A DNA stretch of 64,000 bases, taken from contig JAHHHK010000023.1 of the NCBI GenBank assembly GCA_019359395.1, positions 1 to 64,000 of the forward strand, given 5' to 3'. Made by a program: the position numbers and the translations under genes. The stretch is from Komarekiella atlantica HA4396-MV6 (GTDB taxonomy: Bacteria; Cyanobacteriota; Cyanobacteriia; Cyanobacteriales; Nostocaceae). A model generated the notes under the pieces. It was not told where the DNA came from and made no database searches. It saw only the letters and a list, made by a program, of their open reading frames with translations. Below are positions 25,715-56,940 of the stretch, piece by piece (positions within the stretch are counted from its first letter, which is position 1; the number at the start of each line of letters is the position of its first letter).

Positions 25715-26556
25715 CTCCCTTCACATCGCTTTGTCGATCAATTGTAAGCGGTGCATCTAAGCATTTCGTTGCAGACATTTCTTTTGAATTGGAGATAAGA
25801 AATTTGGAAGATGCAATGTCCCTATTCCTCCTGTTTATATCCACATCTAAGCTTTGTTGATAAATAAAAAAGCAGGTGCGATGCTCGCCTAGATTTAAAA
25901 ATTCCATCCATGCATTCTCGCACCCACCTCAACTGCCATAAGAGGTATCCATCCTCATCTAACACATTGCAACTTAGTACCTAGCTCAAAAAAGTAAAGC
26001 CTAAGTAGCAATGATGACTGCGTGCGAGAAACTACGCCCTACTGTAGGCGATGTCTAGCTTGAAAAGTGACGCTCATACGTCGCTCTCAGCGTACTCCTA
26101 CGGGGAAGCAAGCTACGCCTCTGGTCTCGTAGAGAAGCCGAAGGCTTTACGCTGCGCTAACAGACAGATGGAAACCGCCGCTCCCACGCAAGCGCGATTG
26201 TTCGCACTAGCTCGACTTTTCGCTACGACAGGCTACGCCTACGCACTTAAACTTTTTACTACTGTTTGTCGGTCAGTTTAACGTAGTTTTTATACAGAAA
26301 AGCTTCGCACACTTTTTTGGGAAAATCAAGGGCTATCTTAATAAAAGTTAAAGCCAATGAAACAAAACAGTAAATAGATATTTACTAAAGTTTTTGTGGA
26401 TGCTACTATTTCATAAAAAAATAGTACTTTAACTCGACCGATTTACCGTAATTTAAGGTAAAATCTAAATTTAGCTGACTTATCATCATTACTTGTTCTA
26501 AAAATACTTTCAATATAACAGCTTAGTGTCTCACCCGAAAAAAGAGGTAAAACTTA
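25715..26556. other. Divergent spacer with repeats and a candidate operator
   Basis: 842 bp between the left minus-strand arm and the divergent binding protein. 26040-26265 is dispersed repeat DNA (GTAGGCGATGTCTAGC, TACGCCTACGCAC and relatives). Candidate dyad operator 26421-26454 lies in the AT-rich part that precedes the plus-strand gene. A half-like AAAATAC also occurs near 26508. No further gene is supported. Confidence 0.55.
26421..26454. promoter_or_regulatory. Candidate regulon operator, site 1
   Basis: ATAGTAC-N20-GTAATTT, a diverged form of the 34-bp dyad AAAATAC-N20-GTATTTT. The spacer contains ATTTACC just before the right arm. It starts 136 bp upstream of the binding protein gene at 26557. 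Confidence 0.5.
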
Positions 26557-27660
26557 ATGTTGGAATTTTTATTTCAGCGCCTAATAATCTATTGGCAAAA
26601 ATGGGTTATTTTCAGATTTCCTAATCAAAGGCGATTATTATCGATTGTCACTATAAAATTTACTGGGGCATTTATTACTGGCTTATGTCTCAGCTTATTA
26701 TTTGCCGCTTGTGCAGTAAAAAATCCAAATAATACAACTAATGTATCTGCCAATAATTCCACTCAAACTCAAGCATCAGTAGTCAGATTTGGCTATCAAA
26801 AATCAGCAATTCTCCTAAAAAGTAAAGGGCTTTTAGAAAAACGGTTACAACCTGAAGGTGTATCTGTTGAATGGATTGAGTTTCCAGCTGGGCCACAACT
26901 TTTAGAAGCCATGAATGTTGGCAGTATTGACTTAGGACATACTGGAGAATCGCCACCAATTTTTGCTCAAGCAGCCGGTGCTGCAATCACATATATCGCT
27001 GGAATTGCACCAAGTCCTGCTAGTTCAGCAATTCTTGTTCCCAAAAATTCTGCTATCAAAACAGTCAATGATCTCAAAGGGAAAAAGATTGCTTTTCAAA
27101 AAGGCTCTAGCGCCCATTATATGCTGGTGCAAATCTTAGAAAAAAATGGACTAAAATATAGCGATATTCAACCCATATATTTACCACCAGCCGATGCTCG
27201 TGCAGCCTTTGTCAAGGGTAGTATTGATGCTTGGTCAATTTGGGATCCATTTTACGCAGCAGCAGAAAAATCTGCCGATTCTCGTGTGCTAATTGATGGC
27301 ACAGGAATTAATCGGCAAGGAGGATATTACCTTGCTAGTAAAAACTTTGCTAATCAGCAATCAGAAATTATTAAAGTAATCCTTGAAGAAATTCAAAACA
27401 TTGAACAATGGTCTGACCAAAATCGCAATGAAGTTGCAGCCACTCTCTCTCCTATCTTAGGCATTGATTTAGAAACAATGCAAAAAAGTACTAACAGAAA
27501 AAAGTTTGGAATCACACCAGTTACTCAAGACCTAATTACTCTTCAGCAGCAAGTTGCTGATAAATTTTATGAGTTGAAATTGATTCCAAAACAAATTAAT
27601 GTAAAAGAAGCGATGCTTACACCTGAGCAATACGCTGCCTTTTCACTCAAAACTAAATAA
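26557..27660 (+). CDS. Aliphatic sulfonate ABC transporter substrate-binding protein
   Basis: An SsuA/TauA-like periplasmic receptor of 367 residues. A long basic N-terminus leads to a lipoprotein-type signal (GLCLSLLFAACAVKN; Cys near residue 52). Family motifs are VRFGYQKSAILL, VGSIDLGHTGESPPIFAQAAG, KGKKIAFQKGSSAHYMLVQIL and FVKGSIDAWSIWDPF. The DAWxxWDP motif is intact. It ends with the family C-terminus EAMLTPEQYAAFS. The ATG at 26557 is preceded by AAAGAGG. It is divergent from the left arm, with a candidate operator upstream. The substrate is probably a sulfonate or related organosulfur compound. Confidence 0.9.
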   Translation: MLEFLFQRLIIYWQKWVIFRFPNQRRLLSIVTIKFTGAFITGLCLSLLFAACAVKNPNNTTNVSANNSTQTQASVVRFGYQKSAILLKSKGLLEKRLQPEGVSVEWIEFPAGPQLLEAMNVGSIDLGHTGESPPIFAQAAGAAITYIAGIAPSPASSAILVPKNSAIKTVNDLKGKKIAFQKGSSAHYMLVQILEKNGLKYSDIQPIYLPPADARAAFVKGSIDAWSIWDPFYAAAEKSADSRVLIDGTGINRQGGYYLASKNFANQQSEIIKVILEEIQNIEQWSDQNRNEVAATLSPILGIDLETMQKSTNRKKFGITPVTQDLITLQQQVADKFYELKLIPKQINVKEAMLTPEQYAAFSLKTK

Positions 27661-27751
27661 TTTAGTAATACTCACCATTCGCGTAGTGTGTCGTAGACAG
27701 ACGCTATGCGAACGTAGAGAAGGCGAGAAGCAAGCTACGTAATTCGTAATT

Positions 27752-28573
27752 ATGACCAATCCAATTGAGTTACTCAATCGTCGTTATGGTGTAGACGCAT
27801 TCAATGCAGATATTCCTTTGAATGAGACAATATCTAATTTGCTGTCCCACCGTTCAATCCGCGCTTACCTGAGTGATCCCCTACCACTAAACACTCTCGA
27901 AACCTTGGTAGCAGCAGCACAATCTGCATCGACTTCCTCAAATCTCCAGACGTGGAGTGTAGTTGCTGTTCAAGATCCAAAACGTAAGGAGAAGTTATCG
28001 CAGTTGGCGAATAACCAAGCACATATTCGCCAGTGTCCTTTATTTCTGGTGTGGTTAGCAGATTTGGCGAGATTGACACACGTCGCTGAAAATCAAGGAT
28101 TACCCCATGAAGGTTTAGATTATCTGGAAATGTTTCTGATGGCGGCTATAGATGCAGCATTAGCAGCACAAAATGCTGTTGTCGCCGCCGAATCTCTGGG
28201 TTTGGGAACAGTTTATATTGGTGCGTTGCGTAACCATCCAGAAGCAGTGGCAGAGGTTTTAAATTTACCGCCTCATGTTTTTGCCGTTTTTGGGTTGTGC
28301 GTTGGTTATGCAGATTCATCCGTAAATGTGGAAGTTAAACCGCGTTTACCCCAAGCAGCAGTATTGCATCGGGAGATTTATCAATTAGAGAAACAAGACA
28401 AGGAAATTGCTGTTTACAACCAACTCATGAAAGCATTCTACAGTTCCCAGCAGATGAATGTTGCAGGTGATTGGTCAGAACATTCAACTAAACGAATAGC
28501 GTTTGCTGAATCTTTATCGGGACGCGATCGCCTGCGGGAAGCTTTGAAAAATTTGGGTTTTGAGTTGCGTTAG
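27752..28573 (+). CDS. Nitroreductase-family NADPH:flavin oxidoreductase (NfsA/Frp-like)
   Basis: A 273-residue FMN enzyme. The N-terminus has SHRSIRAYLSDPLPLNTLETLVAAAQSASTSSNLQTWSVVAV, the FMN-binding start of the NfsA/Frp branch. AALAAQNAVVAAESLGLGTVYIGALRN (about residues 132-158) and FAVFGLCVGY follow. Frp-type members reduce free FMN, so it could supply FMNH2 to the monooxygenases in this region, where no ssuE is seen; that is inference. It lies 91 bp after the binding protein gene, across a small repeat containing GTAATTCGTAATT. Confidence 0.85.
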   Translation: MTNPIELLNRRYGVDAFNADIPLNETISNLLSHRSIRAYLSDPLPLNTLETLVAAAQSASTSSNLQTWSVVAVQDPKRKEKLSQLANNQAHIRQCPLFLVWLADLARLTHVAENQGLPHEGLDYLEMFLMAAIDAALAAQNAVVAAESLGLGTVYIGALRNHPEAVAEVLNLPPHVFAVFGLCVGYADSSVNVEVKPRLPQAAVLHREIYQLEKQDKEIAVYNQLMKAFYSSQQMNVAGDWSEHSTKRIAFAESLSGRDRLREALKNLGFELR

Positions 28574-28651
28574 AAAAATGCTAAATGCTGAGTGAAAGAA
28601 CTAATATCCTTGATAGTACTTTTTGTTAAAATATCAATTTAGTGTATTCAA

Positions 28652-29101
28652 ATGACAGACTCTAAAAAGATTAGTGACGATCTAAGTGCAACTGGACAGT
28701 TAACCCCAGAACAATTACAACAAGCAGCAGATGAGGGGTTCAAGTCGGTGATCAATTTGCGCTCCCCCGATGAGCAGGGTTTTTTGAGCGACGAACAGCA
28801 GCAAGCAGAAGCGGCTGGACTGCAATACGCTAACATCCCCTTAAAACCTACAGAACCAAATCAAGAGTTAACGAAAGCAGCACTTGAGGAAATTGCAGAT
28901 TTACCCAAGCCAATATTAATTCACTGTGCTGCTGGTGCTAGAGCATCGGGAATAGCTTTGATTGCCAATGCGATTCAAGAAGGTCTGACTGATGAGCAAA
29001 TTCAGCAAAAAGCTGCCGATTTAGGAATTAGTTTAGAGCAGCCACACCTGAAGCAATTCTTACTGGAGAGATATACCGAAAAGCAGGCAGGAAAAAGTTA
29101 G
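28652..29101 (+). CDS. DSP-PTPase (beta-lactamase-hydrolase-like) phosphatase
   Basis: A 149-residue protein of the DUF442/Blh phosphatase family. Motifs are ATGQLTPEQLQQAADEGFKSVINLRSPDE (about residues 10-40) and the catalytic P-loop ILIHCAAGARA (Cys near residue 92, Arg near 97). Members are dual-specificity-like phosphatases, and some act in sulfide oxidation operons. The C-terminal helix (LTDEQIQQKAADLGISL) is normal. It lies 78 bp after the nitroreductase gene. The phosphorylated substrate is not known. Confidence 0.85.
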   Translation: MTDSKKISDDLSATGQLTPEQLQQAADEGFKSVINLRSPDEQGFLSDEQQQAEAAGLQYANIPLKPTEPNQELTKAALEEIADLPKPILIHCAAGARASGIALIANAIQEGLTDEQIQQKAADLGISLEQPHLKQFLLERYTEKQAGKS

Positions 29102-29130
29102 TTATCAAATTAGAAGAAAACTTTTAAGCT

Positions 29131-29658
29131 TCAATCATCGTCATCAGTAATGGTTGAATACTCAGCATTACCCTGTTTGCTCTCACCGACGAGAACTTCA
29201 AATAAGCGGTTGAGCCGTTTTACCCCACTTAGAGTAATAAGGGTCAGTAATCCCCCTATTAATCCCATTTGCCATAAACCACAGCCGATAGCTGCTCCTA
29301 ATCCTGCCGCAGTCCAGACACAGGCGGCTGTCGTTAAGCCCCGCACTTTTGGCCTCTCAGACTTTCTGGGAGACTCTTGTAAAATCAATCCGGCTCCAAG
29401 AAATCCCACCCCGGTAGCTACACCCTGAATCGTCCGGCTCAAGGCGTTGGTGGCTGCATAGGGACTATCACCCTCAGCCTGCAAAGGAATCATCACAAAT
29501 AATGCTGCTCCCATACTAACTAACATGAATGTTCTCATTCCTGCTGGCCTACCTCCTTGCTGACGATTGAATCCAATCATGCAACCAACTACAAGTGCTA
29601 GAGCTAGTCTCAATGCTATGTGAGGCCAATCGTTGGCGGTAATAAACATATTTCCCAT
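29131..29658 (-). CDS. MgtC/SapB-family membrane protein
   Basis: A 175-residue integral membrane protein. Four or so hydrophobic helices include the signature ALALVVGCMIGFNRQQGGRPAGMRTFMLVSMGAALFVM (about residues 14-51) and GVATGVGFLGAGLIL (about 80-94). The family is linked to magnesium limitation and to regulation of F-type ATP synthase; the role here is open. Start ATG at 29658. Convergent with the phosphatase gene and unrelated to the sulfur genes around it. Confidence 0.9.
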   Translation of the reverse strand: MGNMFITANDWPHIALRLALALVVGCMIGFNRQQGGRPAGMRTFMLVSMGAALFVMIPLQAEGDSPYAATNALSRTIQGVATGVGFLGAGLILQESPRKSERPKVRGLTTAACVWTAAGLGAAIGCGLWQMGLIGGLLTLITLSGVKRLNRLFEVLVGESKQGNAEYSTITDDDD

Positions 29659-29805
29659 TGCAGGATTCCTTCTTTGAGATATAGAACGGAATTTTGCACT
29701 TACTGGCAGAGTTATAAGTGAAAATTTAACTACGGCAAGTCAATAGATTTAGTCAATATTAACGCCAGTTTAACAAACTATTAAAAATAAGTAAATTAAT
29801 ATACA

Positions 29806-29840
29806 TAGATCTACTATTGCTAAAAATACTTTAAATCTAT
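29806..29840. repeat. Direct repeat flanking fic, left copy
   Basis: 35 bp starting TAGATCTACTATTGC match 31123-31157 with only three differences. It overlaps candidate operator site 2. The two copies bracket the Fic gene and the right one starts exactly on its stop codon. Confidence 0.75.
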
Positions 29841-29856
29841 TGTGGAATTGTATTTT
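29823..29856. promoter_or_regulatory. Candidate regulon operator, site 2
   Basis: AAAATAC-N20-GTATTTT, a perfect match of both arms to the 34-bp dyad. It lies 120 bp upstream of the Fic start in an AT-rich spacer. Confidence 0.55.
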
Positions 29857-29976
29857 TAAGAATTAAAAATTTGATATTATATCACATTATGATTATTCTT
29901 AAGTCTTATTAACGATAAAAGCGGTTTATGATAATATAGCCTTAATAATTATTCAGTATTAACGAAACCGATAATA

Positions 29977-31125
29977 ATGGTTAGCACAACTAGGGCAGGA
30001 CAGTATGTAGAGCAGTCTAGTGGATACAAAGCTTTTATACCTAATCCATTGCCTCCGAAGCCTGAGATTCACATGGATTTGGAAATGTGGAATCTTCTAT
30101 CTCAAGCAGATCGTGCCTTAGGTCGGCTAGATGGATCAACAGATGCTCTACCTAATCCTGACTTATTTGTGTTCATGTATGTGCGTAAGGAGGCGGTTTT
30201 ATCAAGTCAAATTGAAGGAACACAAGCATCTTTGATAGATGTATTAGAGTTTGAATCTCAAGCTTTGGAACCAGACAATCCGCAAGAAGTGGCTGAAGTC
30301 GTCAACTATATTGCTGCGGTGAATCACGGTCTTGAACGCTTAACTACATTACCTATATCCTTAAGACTGATTCGGGAAATTCATCAAATATTAATGCAAG
30401 GAGTGCGTGGTTCTGAGCGAGAACCAGGTGAATTTCGCCGCACTCAAAACTGGATTGGTTCTGGTGGTTGTTCTTTAACTAATGCTACTTATGTCCCGCC
30501 GCCACCCCATGAAATGAATCAAACTCTCAATAATTTAGAGATATTTTTACACGATACAACTCCAATTCCCGCTTTAATTAAAGTTGGCTTAGCTCATGCA
30601 CAGTTTGAAACAATCCATCCTTTTCTCGATGGTAATGGTAGAACAGGACGTTTATTAATTACATTTCTACTGTGCGAACAAAATATATTGAAGCGTCCTT
30701 TACTCTACATATCCCATTATTTAAAAAGATATCGTACTGAATATTACGATTATCTTCAATCTGTCCGAGATACAGGAAACTGGGAAGGCTGGCTAAAGTT
30801 TTTTTTAAGAGGTGTTTATGAAGTTGCACAAGAAGCTTCTATGACTGCTCGAAAAATAGTCAACATGAAAGAAGAACATCGTCAACTTGTGCTTAATAGA
30901 ATGGGACGTAGGTCAGGCAATGTTTTAACATTGCTTGAAAGTCTTTATTTTCGACCAATTGTTACAGTAGAACTTGTTCAAAATATTATTCAACTATCTT
31001 ATCCTAATGCCAATACGTTAGTTAAGGATTTGTGCGATTTAGGTCTTCTAGAAGAAATTACAGGGCAAAAACGTAACCGAGCATTTGCATATCAACCATA
31101 TCTTAAAGTTTTTCAAGATTTCTAG
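29977..31125 (+). CDS. Fic-family AMPylase with N-terminal inhibitory motif
   Basis: Fic enzymes transfer AMP (or another nucleotide part) from NTPs to hydroxyl groups of target proteins. The catalytic loop HPFLDGNGRTGR starts at His214. The inhibitory helix SSQIEGTQ carries Glu80, so the enzyme is a class II, self-inhibited Fic. The C-terminus (about residues 300-382) looks like a winged-helix DNA-binding region (ITGQKRNRAFAYQPYLKVF). The 382-residue length is usual for stand-alone Fic-HTH proteins. Upstream and downstream lie near-identical 35-bp repeats with candidate operators. No separate antitoxin gene is visible. The target is unknown. Confidence 0.9.
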   Translation: MVSTTRAGQYVEQSSGYKAFIPNPLPPKPEIHMDLEMWNLLSQADRALGRLDGSTDALPNPDLFVFMYVRKEAVLSSQIEGTQASLIDVLEFESQALEPDNPQEVAEVVNYIAAVNHGLERLTTLPISLRLIREIHQILMQGVRGSEREPGEFRRTQNWIGSGGCSLTNATYVPPPPHEMNQTLNNLEIFLHDTTPIPALIKVGLAHAQFETIHPFLDGNGRTGRLLITFLLCEQNILKRPLLYISHYLKRYRTEYYDYLQSVRDTGNWEGWLKFFLRGVYEVAQEASMTARKIVNMKEEHRQLVLNRMGRRSGNVLTLLESLYFRPIVTVELVQNIIQLSYPNANTLVKDLCDLGLLEEITGQKRNRAFAYQPYLKVFQDF

Positions 31126-31157
31126 ATCTGCTATCACTAAAAATACTTTAAATCTAT
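31123..31157. repeat. Direct repeat flanking fic, right copy
   Basis: 35 bp starting TAGATCTGCTATCAC match 29806-29840 with three differences. The TAG at its start is the Fic stop codon. It overlaps candidate operator site 3. Confidence 0.75.
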
Positions 31158-31173
31158 CAAAATATCGTATTTT
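31140..31173. promoter_or_regulatory. Candidate regulon operator, site 3
   Basis: AAAATAC-N20-GTATTTT, with both arms perfect. It ends 88 bp before the GTG start of the VOC gene (31261) and lies directly after fic. Confidence 0.55.
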
Positions 31174-31260
31174 AAAGTACAATTCATTAACTTCAGTGCT
31201 TGAATGCAAGATAAACAAGCACTGACGTTGCAATAAGCATAAAAAATGGAGGAGATCAGA

Positions 31261-31668
31261 GTGTGGCTGAATGGAATCGCTCATATTCAGGTGACATCAC
31301 CACCTGAAGCCGAGAATGCCATGCTGTTTTTTTACAGCCAAATTTTGGGACTCCCTGAAATTACTAAACCAGAGGTTCTCCAAGCGAATGGAGGCGCATG
31401 GTATGTGCTGGGGGATATTCAAATCCACGTAGGTATAGAGAAGCAGGCTAATAACGAAGTATCTAGACGGCATATATGTTTCCGAGTCCACAACTTAGAA
31501 GCTTTTGCCAAACATCTGCAAGTTCATGGGGTAGAAATTATTAGCGATCGCGTACCGCCCAGCATAGCCGATCGCACTCTACCTCAATGCGATCGCTTTT
31601 TTATCCGCGATCCTGGTGGAAATCGCATAGAAATAGCAGAATTTGTCCACCACAAACTAGGCTCTTGA
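31261..31668 (+). CDS. VOC (glyoxalase/bleomycin-resistance fold) protein
   Basis: A small vicinal-oxygen-chelate protein of about 135 residues. Two beta-alpha-beta-beta-beta units are visible: LNGIAHIQVTSPPEAENAMLFFYSQILGLPEI, then RRHICFRVHNLEAFAKHLQVHGVEI and RFFIRDPGGNRIEIAEF. Metal ligands would be His in IAHIQ, His in RRHIC and Glu in RIEIAEF. The GTG at 31261 is preferred because GGAGGAG ends 6 bases before it; an ATG at 31246 lies at that ribosome binding site itself. The substrate is unknown. A candidate operator is just upstream. Confidence 0.85.
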   Translation: MWLNGIAHIQVTSPPEAENAMLFFYSQILGLPEITKPEVLQANGGAWYVLGDIQIHVGIEKQANNEVSRRHICFRVHNLEAFAKHLQVHGVEIISDRVPPSIADRTLPQCDRFFIRDPGGNRIEIAEFVHHKLGS

Positions 31669-31883
31669 CTTTCTGATAAAATATGGGAAGCTAATAATTA
31701 GAAAATCTAAATATTATAAGTGCATCCAACTCGTGACCAGACTGACGGGAAACGCTGATTTGTCAGCTCAAGTAAGGGTCAACTTCCGCTATATCGGCTT
31801 AACCCTGATTAGTGGGCGACTTTATGCACAAGTAACAATAAAATAAGTTTCCAACATTGAAGAAGGGTTAGCTCTACTAAAAA

Positions 31884-34578: not shown

Positions 34579-34619
34579 AACTCTTGAAGATATGGTATTG
34601 AGCAAGGAAAAGTTTACTA

Positions 34620-42941: not shown

Positions 42942-43763
42942 TTAATGCTTCCAAGCAACTTGAATTGTGGCTTTGAGTTCTTCTGTAAAGTGTCCAGAAG
43001 GCTCAACTGCTAGTAATGCTTCTTTGATATCTGCTTCAAATTCTTCGGCTTTATTGCCATAGAAAATTTTCAAAGAGAAGGCTGTGGTATATAAGTAGCC
43101 AATATAACTAGAGATTGTCCAGGATTTTTCAAATGGCACTTCATACAATTGTTGACGAGCAAATTTTGAGTTGGCAATTACGACTTCATGGGGAGGATCA
43201 ACTGGTTTACGAGTCCCTTGTCCTCGTTGTCCAGTCCGTCGTTCTTCACCTAACCATTTTTTTACTACTCCAACAGCCGCTTGTTTCCAGGGTAGAGAAC
43301 TTTCCCAAGGGTTATCACTGGTGTTGAACAGTGCGACAGCACCATCATCGGCAAGCAATTCATAAAGGCGTTCCAATACGAGTTCGCGTTCCATCCAATG
43401 GAAGGCTCTGCCAATGGTAGCTAGTTTAAATACCCCTAAACTAGGGTTAATCAGTTCTGCGCCTTGTTCTAGCCAAGTAATATTATTTGCTCCAACGGCT
43501 GCTGCTTGGCGTTGCGCTTCTTTGAGCATCTCTGGATCGGGATCGATCGCAACTACTTCCTGAAATTTTTTGTTGAGGGTAATTGCAATTAAACCTGGCC
43601 CAGTACCCAAATCAAGCAATCGTCCCTGACCATTAAGATTTAATATTTCGGTTAGTTTGTCGAATACCGCAGGTGGATATTTAGTTCTGTATTGGGCGTA
43701 GACTTCAGCTGCACCTTCAAATAATGTTGGGTCGTAAGTTGGGAGTGTTTTTAGTTGGGTCAT
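42942..43763 (-). CDS. Class I SAM-dependent methyltransferase
   Basis: A 273-residue methyltransferase: RLLDLGTGPGLIAITLNKKF (motif I, about residues 48-67), VVAIDPDPEMLKEAQRQA (motif II), and a helical C-terminus. PTYDPTLFEGAAEVYAQYRTKYPPAVFDKL is the usual beginning of UbiE-like or trans-aconitate-methyltransferase-like proteins. It is the first gene of the middle minus-strand arm, followed after 34 bp by the DmoA-like gene. The methyl acceptor is unknown. Confidence 0.85.
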   Translation of the reverse strand: MTQLKTLPTYDPTLFEGAAEVYAQYRTKYPPAVFDKLTEILNLNGQGRLLDLGTGPGLIAITLNKKFQEVVAIDPDPEMLKEAQRQAAAVGANNITWLEQGAELINPSLGVFKLATIGRAFHWMERELVLERLYELLADDGAVALFNTSDNPWESSLPWKQAAVGVVKKWLGEERRTGQRGQGTRKPVDPPHEVVIANSKFARQQLYEVPFEKSWTISSYIGYLYTTAFSLKIFYGNKAEEFEADIKEALLAVEPSGHFTEELKATIQVAWKH

Positions 43764-44173: not shown

Positions 44174-44207
44174 AAAATACTAAAACTTGATTGGTTTACC
44201 GTATTTT
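44174..44207. promoter_or_regulatory. Candidate regulon operator, site 4
   Basis: AAAATAC-N20-GTATTTT with both arms perfect. The spacer ends GTTTACC next to the right arm, as in site 1. It lies in the spacer shared by the middle and right arms. Confidence 0.6.
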
Positions 44208-44632
44208 CTTCTTTAACAAAGCTTTTCATACTTACAACCAAAATGCAAGCACTACTTAACACAAGTTTGTCAATAAATTTTTCATCAAAATCTATTTAAA
44301 GAGGCTTGTTTTTCCTCTTAAATTATGCAATCATCCAAAATTAAGAACTAAACTACTAAATCCCGATAAGTTTTTAGGAGTTTAATTGCTCTAATTAAGC
44401 TGATTCAAGTTCTCAAGACAGTACCACTCCTACGTTGTACCTCTGTTGTCTTGTGTGTAATCTTTTAACACGATTTAGCTTTTACAAAAAGCTGTTTGTC
44501 AAAAAACCTCTGTAAGGCAGTTTATCTGAGAAATATTTGTCCTTAACAAGGAAGTGTAATCGGGATGTAAAAATCCTGTGGGGTTTTAGCAATCAAAGAT
44601 TTGTTGATTTTCTGTGCATAACACGATAACCA

Positions 44633-46387
44633 ATGTTTAAAGTTTTGTGGAATTGCGGGCTAGTTATTCCAGTCCTTTTTAATGGATTTTTATTCTTGAT
44701 TTCAGCAGCGATTGCGGCTGAAATGCCCAATTTATCTGAATCTGAGCCAAAACCAGAGATTGAAGAAATTGCCCATGTTGTTGAAAAGACTCAGGCTGAA
44801 TTGAATCAAATCGCCAATGCAGAAGTCATCAAAACCCCAGATTCCTTACTACTAAAAAAAGACAATTTACTTTCCCAGGCAAATTTAGCTGAGCAAAGCA
44901 ACCCCTTAGAACAAGTTACATCTGTTTCTCAGTTGTCTGATATTCAATCGACAGATTGGGCATTTGGTGCTTTACAGTCTTTGGTTGAGCGTTATGGTTG
45001 CATAGCAGGATACCCAAATGGTGAGTTCCGGGGAAATCGAGCCTTGACACGCTACGAATTCGCGGCGGGATTGAATGCTTGTTTAAACCGAGTCAACGAG
45101 CTGATTGCTAGCAGTACTGAGAATTTAGTAACAAGACAAGACTTAACTACCTTGCAAAACTTGCAAGAACAATTTGCATCGGAACTGACAGCATTGCGGG
45201 GTAAGCTTGATAGCCTGGAACAGCGTCAAGCTAAGGTAGAAGCCACGCAGTTTTCTACAACCACCAAATTGGTAGGTGATGCAATATTTGTGGTAGCTGA
45301 TACATTTGGCGATCGCGTCAATAATACCCTAGCCAATGACACTGAGGATAGCACCAATACTGTTTTTGCCTACCGCGCCAGACTAAACTTTCAAACGAGC
45401 TTTACTGGTAGAGATCAACTCACAACGATATTGACACTTGGTAGCGCTATCCCTAACTTGACAAGTTCTACGGGAACCGCAATGACCCGTTTTACCTTTG
45501 ATACTGATGGTAGAGAAGGAACATATCTGAGTCAGTTGGTATATCGTTTTCCAGTAGGTAGCCAAGCTACTGTCTGGGTAGGGACTAGAGCGCTGCAACC
45601 AGCCGTTTTTACACCAACCTTAAACGCTACAGTAGGTGGGATAAATGGTGCTGCTTCGCGGTTTGCAACATTCAACCCCACTATTTACCGCCCTGGCTTT
45701 GATGGTGCTGGCGCAGCTTTTGCATACAAATTCAGCGATCAATTGCAGCTCAATTTGGGTTACATAACTAATGATACTCAAGCCAATCAACCAGATGAAG
45801 GTAATGGGTTTTTTGATGGCAATCATCTCGCACTGGCTCAATTAACCGTATCACCTACTCGTCAGCTAGATATTGGTCTTACTTACGTCCGTAAATACTT
45901 TGGTAATGGAGCTTTTAATCTCACTGGTGGTACAGGTAGCACTTTTGCTAGAAATCCTTTTGGGCAAAATGCTACCACAACTGACAACTTCGGGTTGCAA
46001 TTTAACTGGAGAGTTAGTAGTCGCTTTCATTTAGGTGGCTGGTTTGGTTATACTCTGGCTAATCAGCTAGCAAATGGTGATAGTGATGCAACTATTATTA
46101 ACGGTGCGCTCACCTTTGGTTTTCCAGATTTGTTTAAAGAAGGTAACGTCGGTGGTTTCATCTTTGGTGTACCACCTAAAGTAACTAGCAGTGATTATCG
46201 CCCTACACCCACAGCCCCCCTCCGAGAAGACCAAAATACTTCTTTGCACCTAGAGGCTTTTTATTCCTACAGGGTAAATAACAATATGCGAATTATTCCC
46301 AGTTTGTATCTAATTACCAATCCCGAACACAATAATGCTAATGATCCAATTTGGGTAGGTTCTCTCCGCAGTACTTTTACTTTCTAG
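44633..46387 (+). CDS. SLH-OprB-type outer membrane porin
   Basis: A 584-residue cyanobacterial porin. After a signal peptide (VIPVLFNGFLFLISAAIA) comes an SLH domain (VSQLSDIQSTDWAFGALQSLVERYGCIAGYPNGEFRGNRALTRYEF, about residues 100-145), which ties the barrel to peptidoglycan-bound polymer. A coiled coil follows (about 165-200), then an OprB-like beta-barrel with strands such as GDRVNNTL..., RLNFQTSFTGRDQL and a final WVGSLRSTFTF. Many such porins are annotated as iron uptake porins. The position at the head of the sulfonate-uptake arm and next to operator site 4 suggests it admits organosulfur compounds (inference). Confidence 0.88.
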   Translation: MFKVLWNCGLVIPVLFNGFLFLISAAIAAEMPNLSESEPKPEIEEIAHVVEKTQAELNQIANAEVIKTPDSLLLKKDNLLSQANLAEQSNPLEQVTSVSQLSDIQSTDWAFGALQSLVERYGCIAGYPNGEFRGNRALTRYEFAAGLNACLNRVNELIASSTENLVTRQDLTTLQNLQEQFASELTALRGKLDSLEQRQAKVEATQFSTTTKLVGDAIFVVADTFGDRVNNTLANDTEDSTNTVFAYRARLNFQTSFTGRDQLTTILTLGSAIPNLTSSTGTAMTRFTFDTDGREGTYLSQLVYRFPVGSQATVWVGTRALQPAVFTPTLNATVGGINGAASRFATFNPTIYRPGFDGAGAAFAYKFSDQLQLNLGYITNDTQANQPDEGNGFFDGNHLALAQLTVSPTRQLDIGLTYVRKYFGNGAFNLTGGTGSTFARNPFGQNATTTDNFGLQFNWRVSSRFHLGGWFGYTLANQLANGDSDATIINGALTFGFPDLFKEGNVGGFIFGVPPKVTSSDYRPTPTAPLREDQNTSLHLEAFYSYRVNNNMRIIPSLYLITNPEHNNANDPIWVGSLRSTFTF

Positions 46388-46615: not shown

Positions 46616-46649
46616 AAACTACGGTAAGTTGGTAGGATTGTAGTATTTT
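46616..46649. promoter_or_regulatory. Candidate regulon operator, site 5
   Basis: AAACTAC-N20-GTATTTT, one arm perfect and the other with one change. Inside is TACGGTAA, shared with site 7. It ends 159 bp upstream of ssuC. Confidence 0.55.
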
Positions 46650-46808: not shown

Positions 46809-47630
46809 ATGACTACTAGCCTCAATAAAATCAACAACAACATATTTCCAAAAGCGTTAGTGCAAAACCAACTAATCCAGAAGATTGTTCCTTGGATTGT
46901 GCCTTTTACATTAGTGGTACTATGGGAACTTTCTTCAAGAATAGGTTTACTTTCAACCAGAATTTTACCTGCACCGAGTAGCGTGGTGGTTACAGCATTT
47001 AGATTAGCCTCTACAGGAGAACTTTTTCAACATATAGGAATTAGCGCTGGACGCGCATTATCTGGTTTTATAGTTGGTGGTGGTATTGGTTTTATCTTAG
47101 GCTTACTTAATGGTTTTTTCCCAATTGCCGAAAAGCTATTAGATACTTCCTTGCAAATGCTCCGTACTATTCCTAATTTGGCATTGATTCCTTTAGTAAT
47201 TTTGTGGTTTGGTATTGGTGATCAAGCGAGATTATTTCTAGTATCAATAGGGGTATTTTTTCCCATATATCTCAATACATTTCATGGAATTCGTAGTGTA
47301 GACCCTGGATTGATTGAAATGGGGAGAGTTTATGGGTTAAAAACTAGAGAGCTTTTGTGGCAAATCATTTTCCCTGGCGCATTATCTTCGATTTTAGTTG
47401 GTGTGCGTTTTTCCTTGGGAATTATGTGGCTAACACTAATTGTGGCCGAAACAATTGCCGCTGATTCAGGACTAGGTTACATGGCAATGAATGCCCGTGA
47501 GTTTATGCAAACTGATGTGGTAGTTTTGAGCATTTTTATCTATGCTTTGTTGGGGAAATTAGCAGATGCTACAGCTAGAACTTTAGAAGCAAAATGTTTG
47601 GCTTGGCATCCTAATTATCAAAGTGCTTGA
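46809..47630 (+). CDS. ssuC: Aliphatic sulfonate ABC transporter permease
   Basis: A 273-residue inner-membrane protein with about six hydrophobic helices and the family EAA loop (MGRVYGLKTRELLWQIIFPGALSSILVGVRFSLGIMWLTLIVAE, about residues 178-220). It matches the NitT/TauT branch of permeases. It is the only such permease in the window, although six binding protein genes are present, so the receptors probably share it. The gene is followed by a hairpin repeat and then ssuB, 126 bp away. Confidence 0.93.
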   Translation: MTTSLNKINNNIFPKALVQNQLIQKIVPWIVPFTLVVLWELSSRIGLLSTRILPAPSSVVVTAFRLASTGELFQHIGISAGRALSGFIVGGGIGFILGLLNGFFPIAEKLLDTSLQMLRTIPNLALIPLVILWFGIGDQARLFLVSIGVFFPIYLNTFHGIRSVDPGLIEMGRVYGLKTRELLWQIIFPGALSSILVGVRFSLGIMWLTLIVAETIAADSGLGYMAMNAREFMQTDVVVLSIFIYALLGKLADATARTLEAKCLAWHPNYQSA

Positions 47631-51085: not shown

Positions 51086-51397
51086 GTTATTCATAGATAT
51101 AGTTAGCTTACCTAAATTTTAGTAAAACTTAAATTTTTAAATACATATATTTTATTTGCTAAGTGCTTGTGCTGTAACTAGGGTTGTGTAATAATGCTAA
51201 ATTAATCTACGTTAACTTGGTAGGCAAATCGTATTTTGTTACAAGTACTGCATAGACAGAGCAATCAGTTTAGAGCAGCAACGCGAATACATTAATACAA
51301 CTCTGGTTGATATCGGGTTTTGAGTCTTGATTTTTGCTTAGTCGTGGTTGACGATTTGTGAAAATCAACGAGTCATATTAACTATGGAGACGTAATC
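51086..51397. other. Upstream region of amidohydrolase 2
   Basis: 312 bp, AT-rich, after the HAD fragment. It contains candidate operator site 6 (51205-51238). A ribosome binding site (TGGAGA) lies about 10 bases before the ATG at 51398. No further gene is seen. Confidence 0.5.
51205..51238. promoter_or_regulatory. Candidate regulon operator, site 6
   Basis: AATCTAC-N20-GTATTTT. The inner sequence TTGGTAGG is shared with site 5 at the same spacing. It ends 159 bp upstream of amidohydrolase 2, the same distance as site 5 from ssuC. Confidence 0.55.
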
Positions 51398-52885
51398 ATG
51401 ACAATTGCAATTGAACGTCCTACGAAAAAGTCTCGTTCTGCACAGATTCGGGAGCAACTAGGTTATCCCATCATTGACACTGATGTGCATACCCAGGAAT
51501 TTGAACCAGCTTTTCTGGACTATTTAGCTCAAGTAGGTGGTGCTAAACTTGCGGATAACTTCCGAGATCATTTACCTGGTGCTGGTCGTTATCGTTGGTT
51601 CCAGCAAAGTTGGGAAGAACGTCATACTTACCGCACAGCGCGTCCTCCTTTTTGGGGCCGTCCCACGAAGGACACTTTAAACCTTGCTACTGTTAGTTTA
51701 CCGAAGCTACTGCATGAACGTTTGCAAGAAGCTGGGACAGATTTTGCTGTACTGTATCCCAACTTAGCAACCCTAGCACCGCAAATTAAAAACGAGGAAA
51801 TGCGTCGGGCGGTTTGCCGTGCAGCTAACCTCTATCATGCAGATATATTTAGGTCATATTCCGATCGCCTAACTCCCATTGCTACTATTCCTCTCCACAC
51901 ACCAGAGGAAGGGATAGAAGAATTGGAATATGCAGTCAAAGAATTAGGATTGAAAGCAATTCAAATTCCCGGTTATGTGACTCGCGTCATTCCTGGCTTC
52001 GAGAAATATCCTGAAGAAGTCCAACGAGAAGTGACTTGGATAGATAACTTTGCTTTGGATAGTGCCTACGATTACGATCCCTTCTGGGCGAAGTGCGTAG
52101 AACTAAAAGTTGTCCCCACTACCCACGCATCTGGTATGGGTTGGACATCGCGCCGTTCGATTTCCAACTACCAATATAATCACATTGGACACTTTGCCTC
52201 GGCTGCGGAAGCTTTCTGTAAAGCACTGTTTTTTGGTGGTGTTACAAATCGTTTTCCTACTCTCAGATTTGCTTTTTTAGAAGGTGGTTCGGCTTGGGGT
52301 GCGAGTCTCTATACAGATTTGATCTGGCATTGGGAAACCCGTAATCCAGAGATTTTACAGAACAACCATCCTGATAATGTGAATCGGGAAGAATTACGGG
52401 AATTGTTCATTCGTTATGGTGGTAAAGAATTCCGCGATCGCTTTGATGAAATTGGTAGTGGTTTAGGTTTCCACGGCAAATACTTTGCGCCGGAAAATCC
52501 TGGTGAATTGAATGAATTTGCAGCAGCGGGAATTACCAAAGCGGAAGACGTGCGCGATCGCTTCCTCAATCACTTCTACTTTGGTACGGAGTCAGATGAT
52601 ACCCGTGTGGCTTATGCCTTCCATCAAAAGGCTAATCCTTATGGAGATAGAGTAAAAGCCTTCTTGGGTTCTGATTCTGGCCACTGGGATGTACCTGACA
52701 TTACAGCTGTTACCTCCAACGCTTACAGCATGGTAGAACGCGGTATCCTTAGCGAAGAAGACTTGCGATACTTCCTCTCAATTCATCCTTTGGAATTGTA
52801 TACAAGTCTGAATCGTGACTTTTTTAAAGATACAGCAATTGAAAAACAAGCAGAAGAGTATTTAGCAACTAATACTCGCGCTTAA
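51398..52885 (+). CDS. Amidohydrolase-family metal-dependent hydrolase, paralog 2
   Basis: A 495-residue paralog of the protein at 39873-41411. Corresponding blocks: YPIIDTDVHTQEFEPAFLDYLAQVGG, SDRLTPIATIPLHTPEEGIEELEYAVKELG, DYDPFWAKCVELKVVPTTHASGMGWTSRRSISNY, FAFLEGGSAWGASLYTDL, LGSDSGHWDVPDITAV. Metal-binding Asp/His positions are conserved in both. Amidohydrolase-2 members hydrolyse or decarboxylate small organic acids. Its place between ssuCB and a binding protein gene, with operator site 6 ahead, supports a role in sulfonate or related catabolism. Confidence 0.86.
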   Translation: MTIAIERPTKKSRSAQIREQLGYPIIDTDVHTQEFEPAFLDYLAQVGGAKLADNFRDHLPGAGRYRWFQQSWEERHTYRTARPPFWGRPTKDTLNLATVSLPKLLHERLQEAGTDFAVLYPNLATLAPQIKNEEMRRAVCRAANLYHADIFRSYSDRLTPIATIPLHTPEEGIEELEYAVKELGLKAIQIPGYVTRVIPGFEKYPEEVQREVTWIDNFALDSAYDYDPFWAKCVELKVVPTTHASGMGWTSRRSISNYQYNHIGHFASAAEAFCKALFFGGVTNRFPTLRFAFLEGGSAWGASLYTDLIWHWETRNPEILQNNHPDNVNREELRELFIRYGGKEFRDRFDEIGSGLGFHGKYFAPENPGELNEFAAAGITKAEDVRDRFLNHFYFGTESDDTRVAYAFHQKANPYGDRVKAFLGSDSGHWDVPDITAVTSNAYSMVERGILSEEDLRYFLSIHPLELYTSLNRDFFKDTAIEKQAEEYLATNTRA

Positions 52886-53031
52886 GTAGGTAGGTCGGCG
52901 TAATTAAGGATAACTAAAGGGGACAGTCATTTGAATTCCTCCCTTCTACCTCCTTTACTTGTTTGGTTTTTTATACCGACTTACTAAGAAAAAGTTTGTG
53001 TACCTGATGCAATGACTCCGCTATCTACTCC

Positions 53032-53054
53032 GAAGGTGGGCAATGTCCACCTTC
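53032..53054 (+). terminator. Hairpin in the amidohydrolase-binding protein spacer
   Basis: Perfect 8-bp arms GAAGGTGG / CCACCTTC with a 7-base loop, followed by TTATCTTG rather than a strong T run. It is about 147 bp after the amidohydrolase stop and 88 bp before the next start. It may be a weak terminator or attenuator. Confidence 0.45.
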
Positions 53055-53141
53055 TTATCTTGAAAAGAAAAAAAGTATTTTTTGGTGCTTTGTTTTGCAC
53101 TTATAACCCTTGTAATTCAACTGAGAGCAAACTAAACTTTC

Positions 53142-54188
53142 ATGAACATTGGATTTAAGCAGAAAAAATTTAATATATTCCAGAAATTTTCGTTGTTGCT
53201 TGTACCTGGATTCTTGAGCATTTCGACAACATTAATTAGCTGCTCAGTTGAAACTCCAACTACAGAAAACAAATCAAAGGATTTTACAGCAACAACTATC
53301 CGCATGGGGTATCAAAGTGCTGGAGATCTTGTTAAACTTAGAGGAGGGGTAGAAAAACGTCTGCAACCCTTAGGTGTTTCCGTTGAATGGGCACAGTTTG
53401 CAGCAGGCCCACAATTAATGGAAGCGATGAATGTAGGTAGAGTTGATATTGGCTCTGTCGGCGAAACTCCTCCTATATTTGCTCAAGCCGCTGGTACATC
53501 TTTAGTCTATATTGCTAGTAGACAACCTGGTACAGGTGAAGGTAGTGGTATTGTAGTTCAAAAAAATTCCCCAATTAAAACTTTGGCTGACCTTAAGGGT
53601 AAAAAAGTAGTTTTTCAAAAAGGTTCAGCTTCACATTACTTATTAGTTAAAGCTTTAGAAGAAGCAGGTTTGAAATATGGTGATATCCAAGCTTTGAGTA
53701 TGCCCCCATCAGAGGCCCGTGGCGCTTTTATTCAAGGGCGAATTGATGCTTGGGTGACGTGGGATCCTCATTTAGCTTTGGCACAGAAAACAGCCAATGC
53801 TAGGGTTTTGAGAAATGCTAGTGGTATCGCTACGCAAGGTGGATATTACATGGCTTCACGGCAGTTTGCTACAGAAAATTCAGAATTGGTGCGATTAGTG
53901 CTGGAAGAGATAGATAAAGTAGAAAAATGGGCTGAACAAAACCAAGCCGAAGTTGTAAAAATAACTACTCCTCACCTCAAAATTAATGAAGATATCATCA
54001 AAGAAATGATTAAAAGGCGAAGTTACGGCTTAAGAGCAATTACTCCAGCAATTATGGCAGGTCAACAGCAAATAGCAGATTTATTTGCCCAGGAAAAAGT
54101 AATTCCCAAACCCCTCAATGTAAAAGAAGCAATGCTGACTACTGAGCAATATGCAGCTATTACTCCTACTACAATTAGCCAAAAATAG
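53142..54188 (+). CDS. Aliphatic sulfonate ABC transporter substrate-binding protein
   Basis: An SsuA-like receptor of 348 residues with a lipoprotein-type signal (FSLLLVPGFLSISTTLISC, Cys near residue 34). Motifs: IRMGYQSAGDLVKLRGG, MNVGRVDIGSVGETPPIFAQAAG, KGKKVVFQKGSASHYLLVKAL, IQGRIDAWVTWDPHLAL and AMLTTEQYAAITPT. It is closest in wording to the protein at 34620, but has a normal DAWxxWDP. It would deliver ligand to the SsuBC pair. Confidence 0.92.
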   Translation: MNIGFKQKKFNIFQKFSLLLVPGFLSISTTLISCSVETPTTENKSKDFTATTIRMGYQSAGDLVKLRGGVEKRLQPLGVSVEWAQFAAGPQLMEAMNVGRVDIGSVGETPPIFAQAAGTSLVYIASRQPGTGEGSGIVVQKNSPIKTLADLKGKKVVFQKGSASHYLLVKALEEAGLKYGDIQALSMPPSEARGAFIQGRIDAWVTWDPHLALAQKTANARVLRNASGIATQGGYYMASRQFATENSELVRLVLEEIDKVEKWAEQNQAEVVKITTPHLKINEDIIKEMIKRRSYGLRAITPAIMAGQQQIADLFAQEKVIPKPLNVKEAMLTTEQYAAITPTTISQK

Positions 54189-54269
54189 TATTATGAGAGA
54201 AAAGACTCTGCTGTGTACAATCAACGGATAGCTGTTAATTTTTTTGAACAATTCAAGAATTATTGTTTT

Positions 54270-54941
54270 ATGGTTAAGACTTCTTCAACAATGCTGCCTC
54301 TTGGTATTTTAGCACCAAATTTTCAGTTACCAGATGTGGTTTCAGGTAAAAGCATTTCGCTCTCAAACTTTGCTAATAAAAAAGCGTTGCTAGTAATATT
54401 TTTAAGTCGTCATTGTCCCTTTGTGCAGCACATCAAATTTGAATTAGCAAAACTGGGTCAAAACTACACACAAAACACAAATAGTAATCTGGGGATTGTG
54501 GCAATTAGCGCTAATGATGTCACTAACCATCCTGACGATGCACCAGAATCTTTAAAAGCATTTGCACAAGAATTAGATTTAGCTTATCCTCTGCTTTTTG
54601 ACGAAACTCAAGCAACCGCGAAGAACTTTTTTGCTGCTTGTACTCCTGACTTTTTTCTATTTGATGCTAGCCGAAAACTTGTTTATCGAGGACAACTAGA
54701 TGATAGCCGTCCACAGAGCGGAATACCTGTCACTGGAAAAGATTTGCGGGCTGCAATTGAAACTGTTTTGCTAGGTCGGGCTGTGACTTGGCAACAAAAA
54801 CCTAGTATTGGTTGTAACATTAAGTGGAAGCCAGGAAATGAACCTGTTTATTTTAAAAATCAGGCGTTAGCGTTGGCGGAGCCTCTCGCAGAGAAGCTCA
54901 CCGTTTGCGTAGCGTCTCGCAGAGAAGGTGTCGCAGTTTGA
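54270..54941 (+). CDS. Redoxin/AhpC-TSA-like thioredoxin-fold protein
   Basis: A peroxiredoxin-like protein. From ATG 54270 (MVKTSST) it has 223 residues; a GTG at 54213 adds an unlikely N-terminus and ATG 54288 is also possible. The fold signature is PLGILAPNFQLPDVVSGKSISLSNFANKKALLVIFLSRHCPFVQHIK; a single Cys sits where thioredoxins have CxxC. The last 26 or so residues (ALALAEPLAEKLTVCVASRREGVAV) are read from a dispersed repeat that starts near 54864, so the natural end was displaced. It starts 81 bp after the binding protein gene. A redox helper for thiol chemistry is a guess. Confidence 0.82.
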   Translation: MVKTSSTMLPLGILAPNFQLPDVVSGKSISLSNFANKKALLVIFLSRHCPFVQHIKFELAKLGQNYTQNTNSNLGIVAISANDVTNHPDDAPESLKAFAQELDLAYPLLFDETQATAKNFFAACTPDFFLFDASRKLVYRGQLDDSRPQSGIPVTGKDLRAAIETVLLGRAVTWQQKPSIGCNIKWKPGNEPVYFKNQALALAEPLAEKLTVCVASRREGVAV

Positions 54942-55201
54942 TAAGCTAATACGCATTTAAGTTGTCTATTTACTCATGAGGGTTGTCATTAGTCATTTGT
55001 ATTTCAAAGGTCAGTCTTCACGAAAAAATGTACAATCGCGCATCTGCTTAGGTATAGTTTCTTAATCAAAAGACTGCTGTAATTTAAGCCGTCTTCAATT
55101 ACTATGAAGAGTGCTGATGTAAAAGCTCATCTACAAAAGGTAGCAAATAACTCAGCACAGGCTACACTAACAAAATTCAGTAATCATTTAATAGACTTAC
55201 T

Positions 55202-56008
55202 ATGCCAGTTTCCGAACCACAAAGAGGCTTTTTAGAGCAGATTATTGCTCAGTTAAAAAAAGACGATCGCTTGCTAGGTTTAGCCATTGGTGGTTCATAT
55301 TTGAGTGGGGAAATGGATGAATATTCCGACCTCGACTTAATTATTGTTGTAGCTGATGTTTATTATCAACAGGTATTACATGAGCGGAAGCTTTTCGCTC
55401 ATCGGTTAGGTTCATTGCTAGCGGCTTTTACAGGCGAACACGTTGAAGAACCGAGACTGTTAATTTGTTTATATGAAAATCCACTTTTACACGTTGATTT
55501 TAAATTTTTGGTTCTAGAAGATTTTAAAATAGACCGGATAGAAAATCCTATTGTTCTATGGGAACAAGACAATTTACTAACCTTAGCGATAAAAGATAAC
55601 CCACGAAATTATCCACCTTTAGATTTACAGTGGATTGAAGACCGCTTCTGGGTTTGGGTACACTACGTAGCTACTAAATTAGGCAGAGGTGAACTTTTTG
55701 AAGCTATTGATTTTCTTTCTTATATTCGTGGACAAGTTCTCGCCCCATTAGCCAAAATCCAGGCAGGAAAACGCCCTCGTGGTGTGAGGAATTTGGAAAC
55801 AGAACTTCCTCATTTGTTAGCAGATTTTCGTCAGACTATACCGATGAAACACGATAGTCTTGAAATTGCCAAAGCGTTGCAACACAGCATTTACTTATAT
55901 CGTCAGTTTCGGGAAGCATTAGACAAACCATATTTGGTTGTGCATTCTTCAGCAGAAAAGGCTTCTATGCAATATCTGCAAACAGTTATAGATGGTTTTA
56001 AATACTAA
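55202..56008 (+). CDS. Nucleotidyltransferase-domain protein
   Basis: A 268-residue protein with the polymerase-beta-type motif IGGSYLSGEMDEYSDLDLIIVV (Gly30-Ser32, Asp43, Asp45). A helical C-terminal domain follows (about 150-260). It resembles aminoglycoside-nucleotidyltransferase-like or MNT-type proteins; the acceptor is unknown. It stands between the redoxin and SDR genes. ATG at 55202. Confidence 0.82.
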   Translation: MPVSEPQRGFLEQIIAQLKKDDRLLGLAIGGSYLSGEMDEYSDLDLIIVVADVYYQQVLHERKLFAHRLGSLLAAFTGEHVEEPRLLICLYENPLLHVDFKFLVLEDFKIDRIENPIVLWEQDNLLTLAIKDNPRNYPPLDLQWIEDRFWVWVHYVATKLGRGELFEAIDFLSYIRGQVLAPLAKIQAGKRPRGVRNLETELPHLLADFRQTIPMKHDSLEIAKALQHSIYLYRQFREALDKPYLVVHSSAEKASMQYLQTVIDGFKY

Positions 56009-56035
56009 TAAGACTAGTAGAAAAAGGATGAATTT

Positions 56036-56785
56036 ATGGTAGCGAAATTAGATGAAAAAGTAGCAATTATTACGGGAGCTTCTTCGGGAATTGGTGAAGC
56101 CACGGCTATAGCTTTAGCAGCAGAAGGCGCAAAAGTGGTAATTGCAGCCAGAAGAGGCGATCGCCTGGAAGCACTAGCAAAACGCATCGAATCCAGTGGT
56201 GGACAAGCGTTACCCATAGTTACCGATATCACCGACGAAACCCAAGCCAACAACCTCATCCACAAAGCCAACGCAGAGTTAGGGCGAGTGGATATCTTAG
56301 TGAACAACGCAGGTGTAGCCCTCACAGGTAATATTGATGGCGGTAATACATCAGACTGGCGACGGATGTTTGATGTCAATGTCTTTGGATTGCTTTATGC
56401 TACTCATGCCGTCCTGCCAATTTTCAAAGCCCAAGGTAGCGGTCATATCGTCAATATTTCATCAGTAGCAGGTCGCATAGCACGGGCAGGCGTTGGTATA
56501 TACAACGCAACCAAATGGGGTGTGAACGCTATTTCCGAATCCCTACGGCAAGAAGTTTTACAAGATAACATCCGTGTCACTATCATCGAACCTGGTTTGG
56601 TAGAGACAGAAATCAATAATCATGTCACTGATCCTGTAGCCAAAAAAAATGTTGAAGCACGAATAAAAGCGATCGCACCACTGCAAAGTGAGGATATTGC
56701 TAGGGCGATTGCTTATGCTGTGACACAACCACCGCACGTTAATGTCAATGAAATTCTCATTCGACCAACTCAGCAAGAACGGTAA
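56036..56785 (+). CDS. Short-chain dehydrogenase/reductase (SDR)
   Basis: A 249-residue classical SDR. NAD(P) motif TGASSGIG is at 13-20, with the AARRGDRL tail suggesting NADP. NNAG lies near residue 89. The catalytic set is Ser near 143, Tyr156 and Lys160 (YNATK). It closely fits the YdfG-like group acting on 3-hydroxy acids or aldehydes. It may reduce or oxidise a desulfonation product (inference). The gap to the next gene is 183 bp and holds operator site 7. Confidence 0.92.
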   Translation: MVAKLDEKVAIITGASSGIGEATAIALAAEGAKVVIAARRGDRLEALAKRIESSGGQALPIVTDITDETQANNLIHKANAELGRVDILVNNAGVALTGNIDGGNTSDWRRMFDVNVFGLLYATHAVLPIFKAQGSGHIVNISSVAGRIARAGVGIYNATKWGVNAISESLRQEVLQDNIRVTIIEPGLVETEINNHVTDPVAKKNVEARIKAIAPLQSEDIARAIAYAVTQPPHVNVNEILIRPTQQER

Positions 56786-56906
56786 AGAATCAAATTCAAC
56801 GCCTCTTAAAAACCCTCCGCGTCCCTTTGCGTTTTAGTCTTTTCCCAGTAGACATACTTTTTCGGATCTTGCATTTGCGGCTTATCTATGTGAATATTCT
56901 CTCAAT

Positions 56907-56940
56907 AAAATACGGTAAATTGCTCGATTTATCGTAATAT
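56907..56940. promoter_or_regulatory. Candidate regulon operator, site 7
   Basis: AAAATAC-N20-GTAATAT. The internal symmetry is the best of all sites: TACGGTAAAT, 6 bases, ATTTATCGTA. It lies 28 bp upstream of the binding protein gene at 56969, at a place where a bound repressor could block transcription or an activator overlap the promoter. Confidence 0.65.

Follow-up and report, generated by a model that had tools for sequence, protein, structure and literature searches.

The first 64,000 nucleotides of contig JAHHHK010000023.1 of the cyanobacterium Komarekiella atlantica HA4396-MV6, hereafter called the window, contain repeated copies of a 34-bp palindrome, which an earlier note on this DNA had proposed as the operator of an organosulfur regulon. 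Judged from the sequences behind it, the palindrome looks like a more general sulfur-assimilation operator, the organosulfur genes being one branch of its regulon, and it would recur in this role across the class Cyanobacteriia. The palindrome is conserved and intergenic, it lies ahead of sulfur genes and tends to come after a promoter-like element, and copies lie ahead of rrf2-A, a gene of the Rrf2 regulator family, and of a Crp-family regulator gene. We infer repression, the identity of the binding protein, the role of CysK and the sensing of O-acetylserine from these arrangements, and give a little better than even weight to the interpretation that the operator is bound by a CymR-like Rrf2 repressor with CysK as its co-repressor.

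The 34-bp palindrome and its placement

The earlier note described the element as AAAATAC-N20-GTATTTT at seven intergenic sites, all keeping TAC-N20-GTA and three of them (29823, 31140 and 44174) having both 7-bp arms perfect. All seven are present as read and six positions stand as given; the seventh, placed at 51205, has to be shifted one base to the left, to 51204-51237, for the alignment. Taken by themselves the outer arms say little: the window has 25 copies of TAC-N20-GTA, and when up to three mismatches are allowed AAAATAC-N20-GTATTTT matches 14 times, against 8.4 +/- 2.7 expected from dinucleotide shuffles, 4 of 100 of which scored as high. Being near chance, they were replaced as a motif by the full 34-bp dyad, which carries the real signal. 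When the seven sites were scored leave-one-out with a symmetric matrix built from them, they reached 22-35 bits, whereas the maxima of 20 letter-shuffled windows, a control in which dinucleotides are not kept, had a mean of 10.3 and a highest value of 20.8 bits. The same matrix detected two further sites in the window, at 26256-26289 (24.7 bits) and 44350-44383 (22.7 bits), together with a weak one at 29727-29760 (12.8 bits), and, in stretches picked from pattern matches, another eight that had been held out, scoring 21-32 bits, on contig C62 and on the window's own contig (C12, 122 kb) beyond the window.

From this genome and its relatives, 113 distinct sites of at least 22 bits were collected, and the 74 of them that were aligned, in both orientations, gave AAAnTACnGTAAATCGATCGATTTACnGTAnTTT as the consensus of the whole palindrome. 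The columns that flank this consensus carry at most 0.27 bits. The outer arm TACnGTA is a small palindrome in itself, on both sides, and the copies vary inside while retaining the dyad.

The earlier note had suggested counting hits upstream of genes against hits inside them. Among 80 sites of at least 22 bits, 79 lie outside open reading frames (ORFs), the lone exception being L037:6464, in 572 kb of this and related genomes that are 70% coding (P=2e-40); these stretches were chosen around motif matches and not for being intergenic. A k-mer search around the 80 sites returned -35-like words, and promoter tests were made on the 44 sites with one clear downstream gene. On the gene-distal side, CTTGNNT occurs at -55 to -30 in 16 of the 44 and a -35/-10-like pair in 24; on the mirrored side the counts are 2 and 5. 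A scored promoter model likewise gave higher values on the gene-distal side than at random intergenic positions (P=3e-8) or on the mirrored side (P=0.002). The predicted operator thus tends to sit just downstream of a promoter or to overlap its end, and this placement after a promoter-like element therefore suits a repressor site.

Genes behind the predicted operator

The 7.78-Mb genome was scanned with a model using sequence only and trained on 17 sites, 150 of 4478 first-look candidates being scored. At least 20 places were found at E<=0.1, of which 15 are on C12, 3 on C62 and 2 on C32. According to the earlier note, an equal frequency of the motif elsewhere in the genome would speak against an operator, and the scan does not bear this out. 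Weaker places exist beyond that threshold, some of them within genes. Seventeen of the 20 are training sites. The three new ones are located ahead of a sulfate ABC ATPase gene (L012:836; TIGR00968, 421 bits), between cysE and rrf2-cysK (L034:9718), and just before a Crp-family gene, at a distance of 6 bp (L034:8279); an additional site lies in the rrf2 leader (L034:9808, 24.6 bits). Other sites on C12 and C62 precede a TauD-containing gene set, flavoprotein genes, a gene for an LLM-like monooxygenase and a TauE exporter gene, as identified partly by eye.

The idea that one operator is common to organosulfur uptake and catabolism genes thus appears sound, but the designation as an organosulfur regulon is too narrow: the organosulfur genes are one branch, and in this genome or its relatives sites are also found ahead of the sulfate ATPase gene, sbpA-cysT-cysW, cysE, rrf2-cysK, the Crp regulator gene and TauE exporter genes. 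Predicted operators therefore precede cysteine as well as sulfonate genes.

Of 40 relatives, 30 have a motif match (E<=0.1), and across Cyanobacteriia 74 of 145 genomes have one (E<=0.05), a few of those with a single site by chance; in this class survey 48 candidates were scored per genome under stricter filters, so that weak sites were lost. A labelled sulfur gene starts within 500 bp of 36 of the 57 best-site loci, a figure that describes and does not prove, since the labels came from these same regulons and had no control. The labelled target is sbpA at 8 of the 57, and some of the remaining 21 were missed through a called ORF overlapping the site. The names sbpA, cysT and cysW were confirmed in G012 (L088), where the sulfate-binding model TIGR00971, CysT and CysW all scored above cut-off.

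Other genes, too, neighbour the operator. The groES and groEL genes (Cpn10, Cpn60) lie beside it in G007 (L082:11497-13823), and a groEL-like gene lies about 0.6 kb from it in G013 (L085, by eye). In three genomes a small protein that has EWHDLYNTEP or EWHDLYNTQP close to the N-terminus and a weak Methyltransf_20 match is encoded directly behind the operator (L009:18227-18910, L073:3528-3866 and L049:1601-2257).

Candidate regulators

In the mechanism that we propose, the operator would lie at a sigma70-type promoter or immediately beyond it, and a dimeric repressor bound there would block transcription while sulfur is plentiful. When sulfur runs short the repressor would leave, and the genes for the sulfate permease, for sulfonate, sulfone and taurine uptake and for desulfonation would be expressed, together with cysE, cysK and two regulator genes. 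The repressor would most likely be a CymR-like Rrf2 protein, comprising a widespread lineage that has no operator of its own and, in many Nostocaceae, the operator-controlled rrf2-A. CysK would act as co-repressor, held through the C-terminal MYYI of the Rrf2 protein and released as O-acetylserine accumulates.

The gene rrf2-A is divergent from cysE, is often followed by cysK and has the operator upstream. Of 80 named Nostocaceae loci, 74 (64/69 and 10/11) have a site of at least 16 bits no more than 400 bp before the Rrf2 core, and in 55 named loci a site (at least 14 bits) is found at exactly -77, often with a second one near -168, towards cysE. In a tree of 61 Rrf2 proteins, all 16 genes with a site (at least 16 bits) fall in one 19-row clade (support 100/99), compared to 0/42 outside it. 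The gene cysK is next to rrf2 in 38 of 61 loci, directly downstream in 8/14 rrf2-A and 30/47 others. A broken copy of both rrf2-A and cysK was observed in G018 (L173, C1:1047000-1051500), where the matrix still detects two sites, of 18.8 and 13.3 bits; no motif match at E<=0.1 was found in that genome.

The 61 full-length proteins, a set that leaves out 6 truncated and the more distant Rrf2 proteins, end in MYYI (60/61) or MYHI (1/61), and none has a spaced Cys triad (C-x4-7-C-x4-7-C); the CysE proteins listed end in GAGI. A C-terminal isoleucine is described for CysK-docking proteins, CymR included (PMC12895370, PMC4961446), and MYYI or MYHI is a tail of this type, from which docking to CysK is predicted. 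The Rrf2 domain PF02082 scored 114-127 bits in four proteins (cut-off 30), and CymR was the best equivalog match for each of the four scored on the CymR model. Rrf2-A (contig C32) and Rrf2-B (contig C48) match the solved CymR structure 2y75 (E=1.4e-16 and 1.3e-17) and also the BadM/Rrf2 chain 4cic, which likewise ends in MYYI.

A CymR-like Rrf2 (E<=1e-20) is encoded in 46 of 46 genomes with at least four motif matches, whereas the Crp-family protein is missing in 7 and the LysR-type regulator considered below in 16; both are missing in G171 (12 matches), G048, G073 and G170. In G008, G012 and G027 the motif is present and rrf2-A is missing, only the widespread lineage and distant Rrf2 proteins being found; if an Rrf2 of this kind is the binder, it should therefore be the widespread one that binds there.

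Several results weigh against this assignment. The widespread lineage has no operator of its own, and the 80 named rrf2-A loci come from close relatives and are not independent. All four scored proteins miss the cut-off of the NCBIfam CymR equivalog (92, 104, 109 and 114 bits against 195), and are therefore called CymR-like and not CymR. Co-occurrence of motif and Rrf2 (73/125 genomes with Rrf2 against 1/20 without, P=4e-6) is driven by families f19 and f28; without them it loses significance (73/122 against 1/4, P=0.31), and it was rejected as proof, being confounded by phylogeny. Moreover, 52 of the 125 Rrf2-bearing genomes have no motif match and G017 has one weak site and no such Rrf2, while in the test on genomes with at least four matches Crp co-occurs with the motif more tightly (P=3e-7, without family control, against 4e-4 for Rrf2). 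A high promoter score was reached at only 3 of the 44 sites (mirrored 1/44, random 3.1%). Finally, the inner GTAA...TTAC inverted repeat resembles the SifR/HypR Rrf2 operator, described as TGTAA-N9-TTACA (PMC9218516), but its spacing is GTAA-N10-TTAC, and the dyad here, unlike those operators, reaches 34 bp with outer TAC/GTA and A/T tracts.

Binding by some other, unsampled transcription factor, with the Rrf2 and Crp genes as mere targets, seems rather unlikely. Only three regulators were tested, and a conserved operator can have its regulator encoded elsewhere; on the other hand, the Rrf2 and Crp genes beside the cysteine genes bear the operator just upstream, and the CymR-like Rrf2 is present in every genome with at least four matches.

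It is also unlikely that the palindrome is bound by the Crp-family protein encoded beside cysE (the orthologue of L034:7683-8273, CysR-like, with HTH_Crp_2 and Crp Pfam matches above cut-off), acting as activator and autoregulator. Among 22 genomes with a close homologue of this gene (blastp >200 bits), 17 have a site in the 110 bp before it and 19 have one within 300 bp, compared to 0/8 more distant homologues, 30 loci having been examined of 39 genomes with a match. At least four motif matches are found in 39/78 genomes with Crp and 7/67 without (P=3e-7, families uncontrolled), and CysR is described as controlling sulfate genes in Synechococcus elongatus (PMC12016511). However, no Crp was found at E<=1e-30 in 22 of the 74 motif genomes (7 of the 46 with at least four matches), among them G171 with its 12 matches, while G023 has Crp and no motif match at E<=0.1. 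The placement after the promoter suits a repressor, and the known Crp-type sites are short, unlike the 34-bp TAC-N20-GTA dyad. The Crp protein could instead have its site in a separate dyad, GGATG-N6-CATCC, midway between the cysE and rrf2-A operators (L034:9763-9778). This dyad, possibly a Crp-type site, occurs in relatives too. As a second regulon-wide motif it was rejected: it has 9 places in the genome against 3 for the reversed control, and 1 of the 9 is in the sulfur-gene regions examined, neighbourhoods having been inspected for one place.

A still less probable binder is the LysR-type regulator of the sulfate/TauE cluster (L012:5094-6029), in the manner of CysB in proteobacteria. In G141 (L210) one operator separates the divergent rrf2 and LysR genes, and 36 of 39 genomes with the LysR protein (E<=1e-70) carry the motif; yet at this threshold it is missing in 16 of the 46 genomes with at least four matches, including G133 with 27, and among the matches listed there is no site between 869 and 5094 of L012, ahead of the LysR gene in this genome. 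A mobile repeat or an AT-rich pattern due to chance is hardly a credible account of the dyad, in spite of the near-chance outer arms and the two copies within a 35-bp direct repeat around fic, for the copies differ inside yet keep the dyad, ORFs are avoided, and the position ahead of orthologous genes is conserved (-77 and about -168 in rrf2-A loci).

The CymR-like Rrf2 repressor with CysK thus remains our preferred reading. Its wider form, which we put forward tentatively and at less than even confidence, is a class-wide switch in which a CymR-like repressor, with CysK as O-acetylserine sensor, would act on the 34-bp operator and stand above the Crp-family (CysR-like) regulator; in many Nostocaceae, rrf2-A would be a duplicate under its own control, gained along with cysE and often cysK at the same time as the operator spread widely into organosulfur scavenging islands.

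Sites in the window and known sulfur regulons

The gene contexts given in the earlier note agree with the annotation by profile searches. Unless stated otherwise, the sites below belong to the seven-site set and were also found by the genome model. The first extra site, 26256-26289, probably serves the minus-strand genes 25714-19409 and has, by eye, the -35-like element CTTGATTTT on its minus-strand side. Amid these organosulfur genes lie short ORFs at 20614-21015 and 23723-24031, without Pfam match, and at 24137-24739, which matches binding-protein profiles in part only; parts of this gene set may be decaying. The site at 26421-26454 precedes a plus-strand gene for an NMT1/SsuA-type binding protein (26557-27660, profile match).

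Two sites bracket fic: 29823-29856 is located between mgtC (29131-29658, minus strand) and fic (plus strand), and 31140-31173 between fic and a glyoxalase-fold gene (31246-31668). As targets of this pair, mgtC and the glyoxalase-fold gene are no less likely than fic. The weak candidate at 29727-29760, ahead of mgtC, scores within the range of the shuffled maxima; sites were found upstream of close mgtC homologues in G007, G013 and G021, and not in G027 and G030. A 35-bp direct repeat (29806-29840 and 31123-31157, 32/35 identical) brackets fic and contains the 5' half of the 29823 and 31140 operators and the 17 bp before it, which would fit the insertion of a fic cassette or a duplication of the operator.

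In the divergent spacer before the porin gene, the site at 44174-44207 probably serves the minus-strand genes starting at 43763, and the second extra site, 44350-44383, precedes the SLH/OprB porin gene (44633-46387, plus strand, profile match). By eye, the two sites have separate -35-like elements, one for each direction: CTTGCATT on the minus-strand side of the 44174 site and CTTG on the 5' side of the 44350 site. Downstream, all on the plus strand, the predicted targets are ssuC (46809-47630; PRK11365, 350 bits, above cut-off) with an ssuB-like gene behind the site at 46616-46649, a gene for an amidohydrolase 2 family protein (51398-52885; PF04909, 51.3 bits, cut-off 26.4; no match in an NCBIfam search) behind the site of the seven-site set at 51204-51237, and a gene for an SsuA-family binding protein (56969-58039; SsuA_fam, 244 bits, above cut-off) behind the site at 56907-56940. 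Among the ORFs examined, no obvious regulator gene lies in the window, as the earlier note had said; the candidates are on contigs C32, C48, C56 and C62.

In Bacillus subtilis, CymR and CysK are described as repressing cysK, ssu and uptake genes, with release at high O-acetylserine, and an rrf2-cysK pair is described in Clostridium acetobutylicum (PMC3828012). The arrangement found here resembles the CymR-CysK regulon of B. subtilis and Staphylococcus aureus in its Rrf2 proteins without spaced Cys triads and its rrf2-cysK pair (PMC3828012, PMC2869319, PMC4961446, PMC12895370), and in having cysteine, sulfonate (ssu) and uptake genes as targets and CysK as partner, the cyanobacterial side of this likeness being predicted (PMC3828012). 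It differs in the low CymR scores of the four proteins, and in that sites also precede a second rrf2-cysK-cysE cluster and the genes for the sulfate permease, the Crp regulator, OprB porins, LLM enzymes and TauD enzymes.

Among cyanobacteria, CysR of the Crp family is described as controlling sulfate-assimilation genes in S. elongatus, in a paper whose main text does not contain the words motif, palindrome or binding site (PMC12016511); here, in contrast, the CysR-like Crp gene is itself behind the operator, and a close homologue is missing in 22/74 motif genomes. Withdrawal of sulfur is described as inducing sbpA-cysTWA in Synechocystis PCC 6803, in a paper whose main text lacks the words motif and palindrome (PMC2491639), and sbpA is also among the targets found here (8/57 best-site loci). 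The motif TAAWATGATT described for plastid cysT/cysA (PMC3773388) differs from the 34-bp operator. We recognised no report of this operator in the open-licence full-text literature, subscription papers lying outside the search.

The proposed mechanism is of a known kind; what would be new is the operator, its setting in cyanobacteria and its use to control a Crp regulator. Work on sulfur control in cyanobacteria, for which CysR has been named in a main text that gives no binding site under that term (PMC12016511), gains from the palindrome an operator that can be tested and a few candidate regulators. Many unnamed organosulfur genes would fall to one regulon, in which most likely one sulfur-sensing repressor keeps the sulfur-scavenging genes of these cyanobacteria off while sulfur is plentiful. 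The findings also suggest that sensing in the style of CymR and CysK is not confined to Firmicutes.

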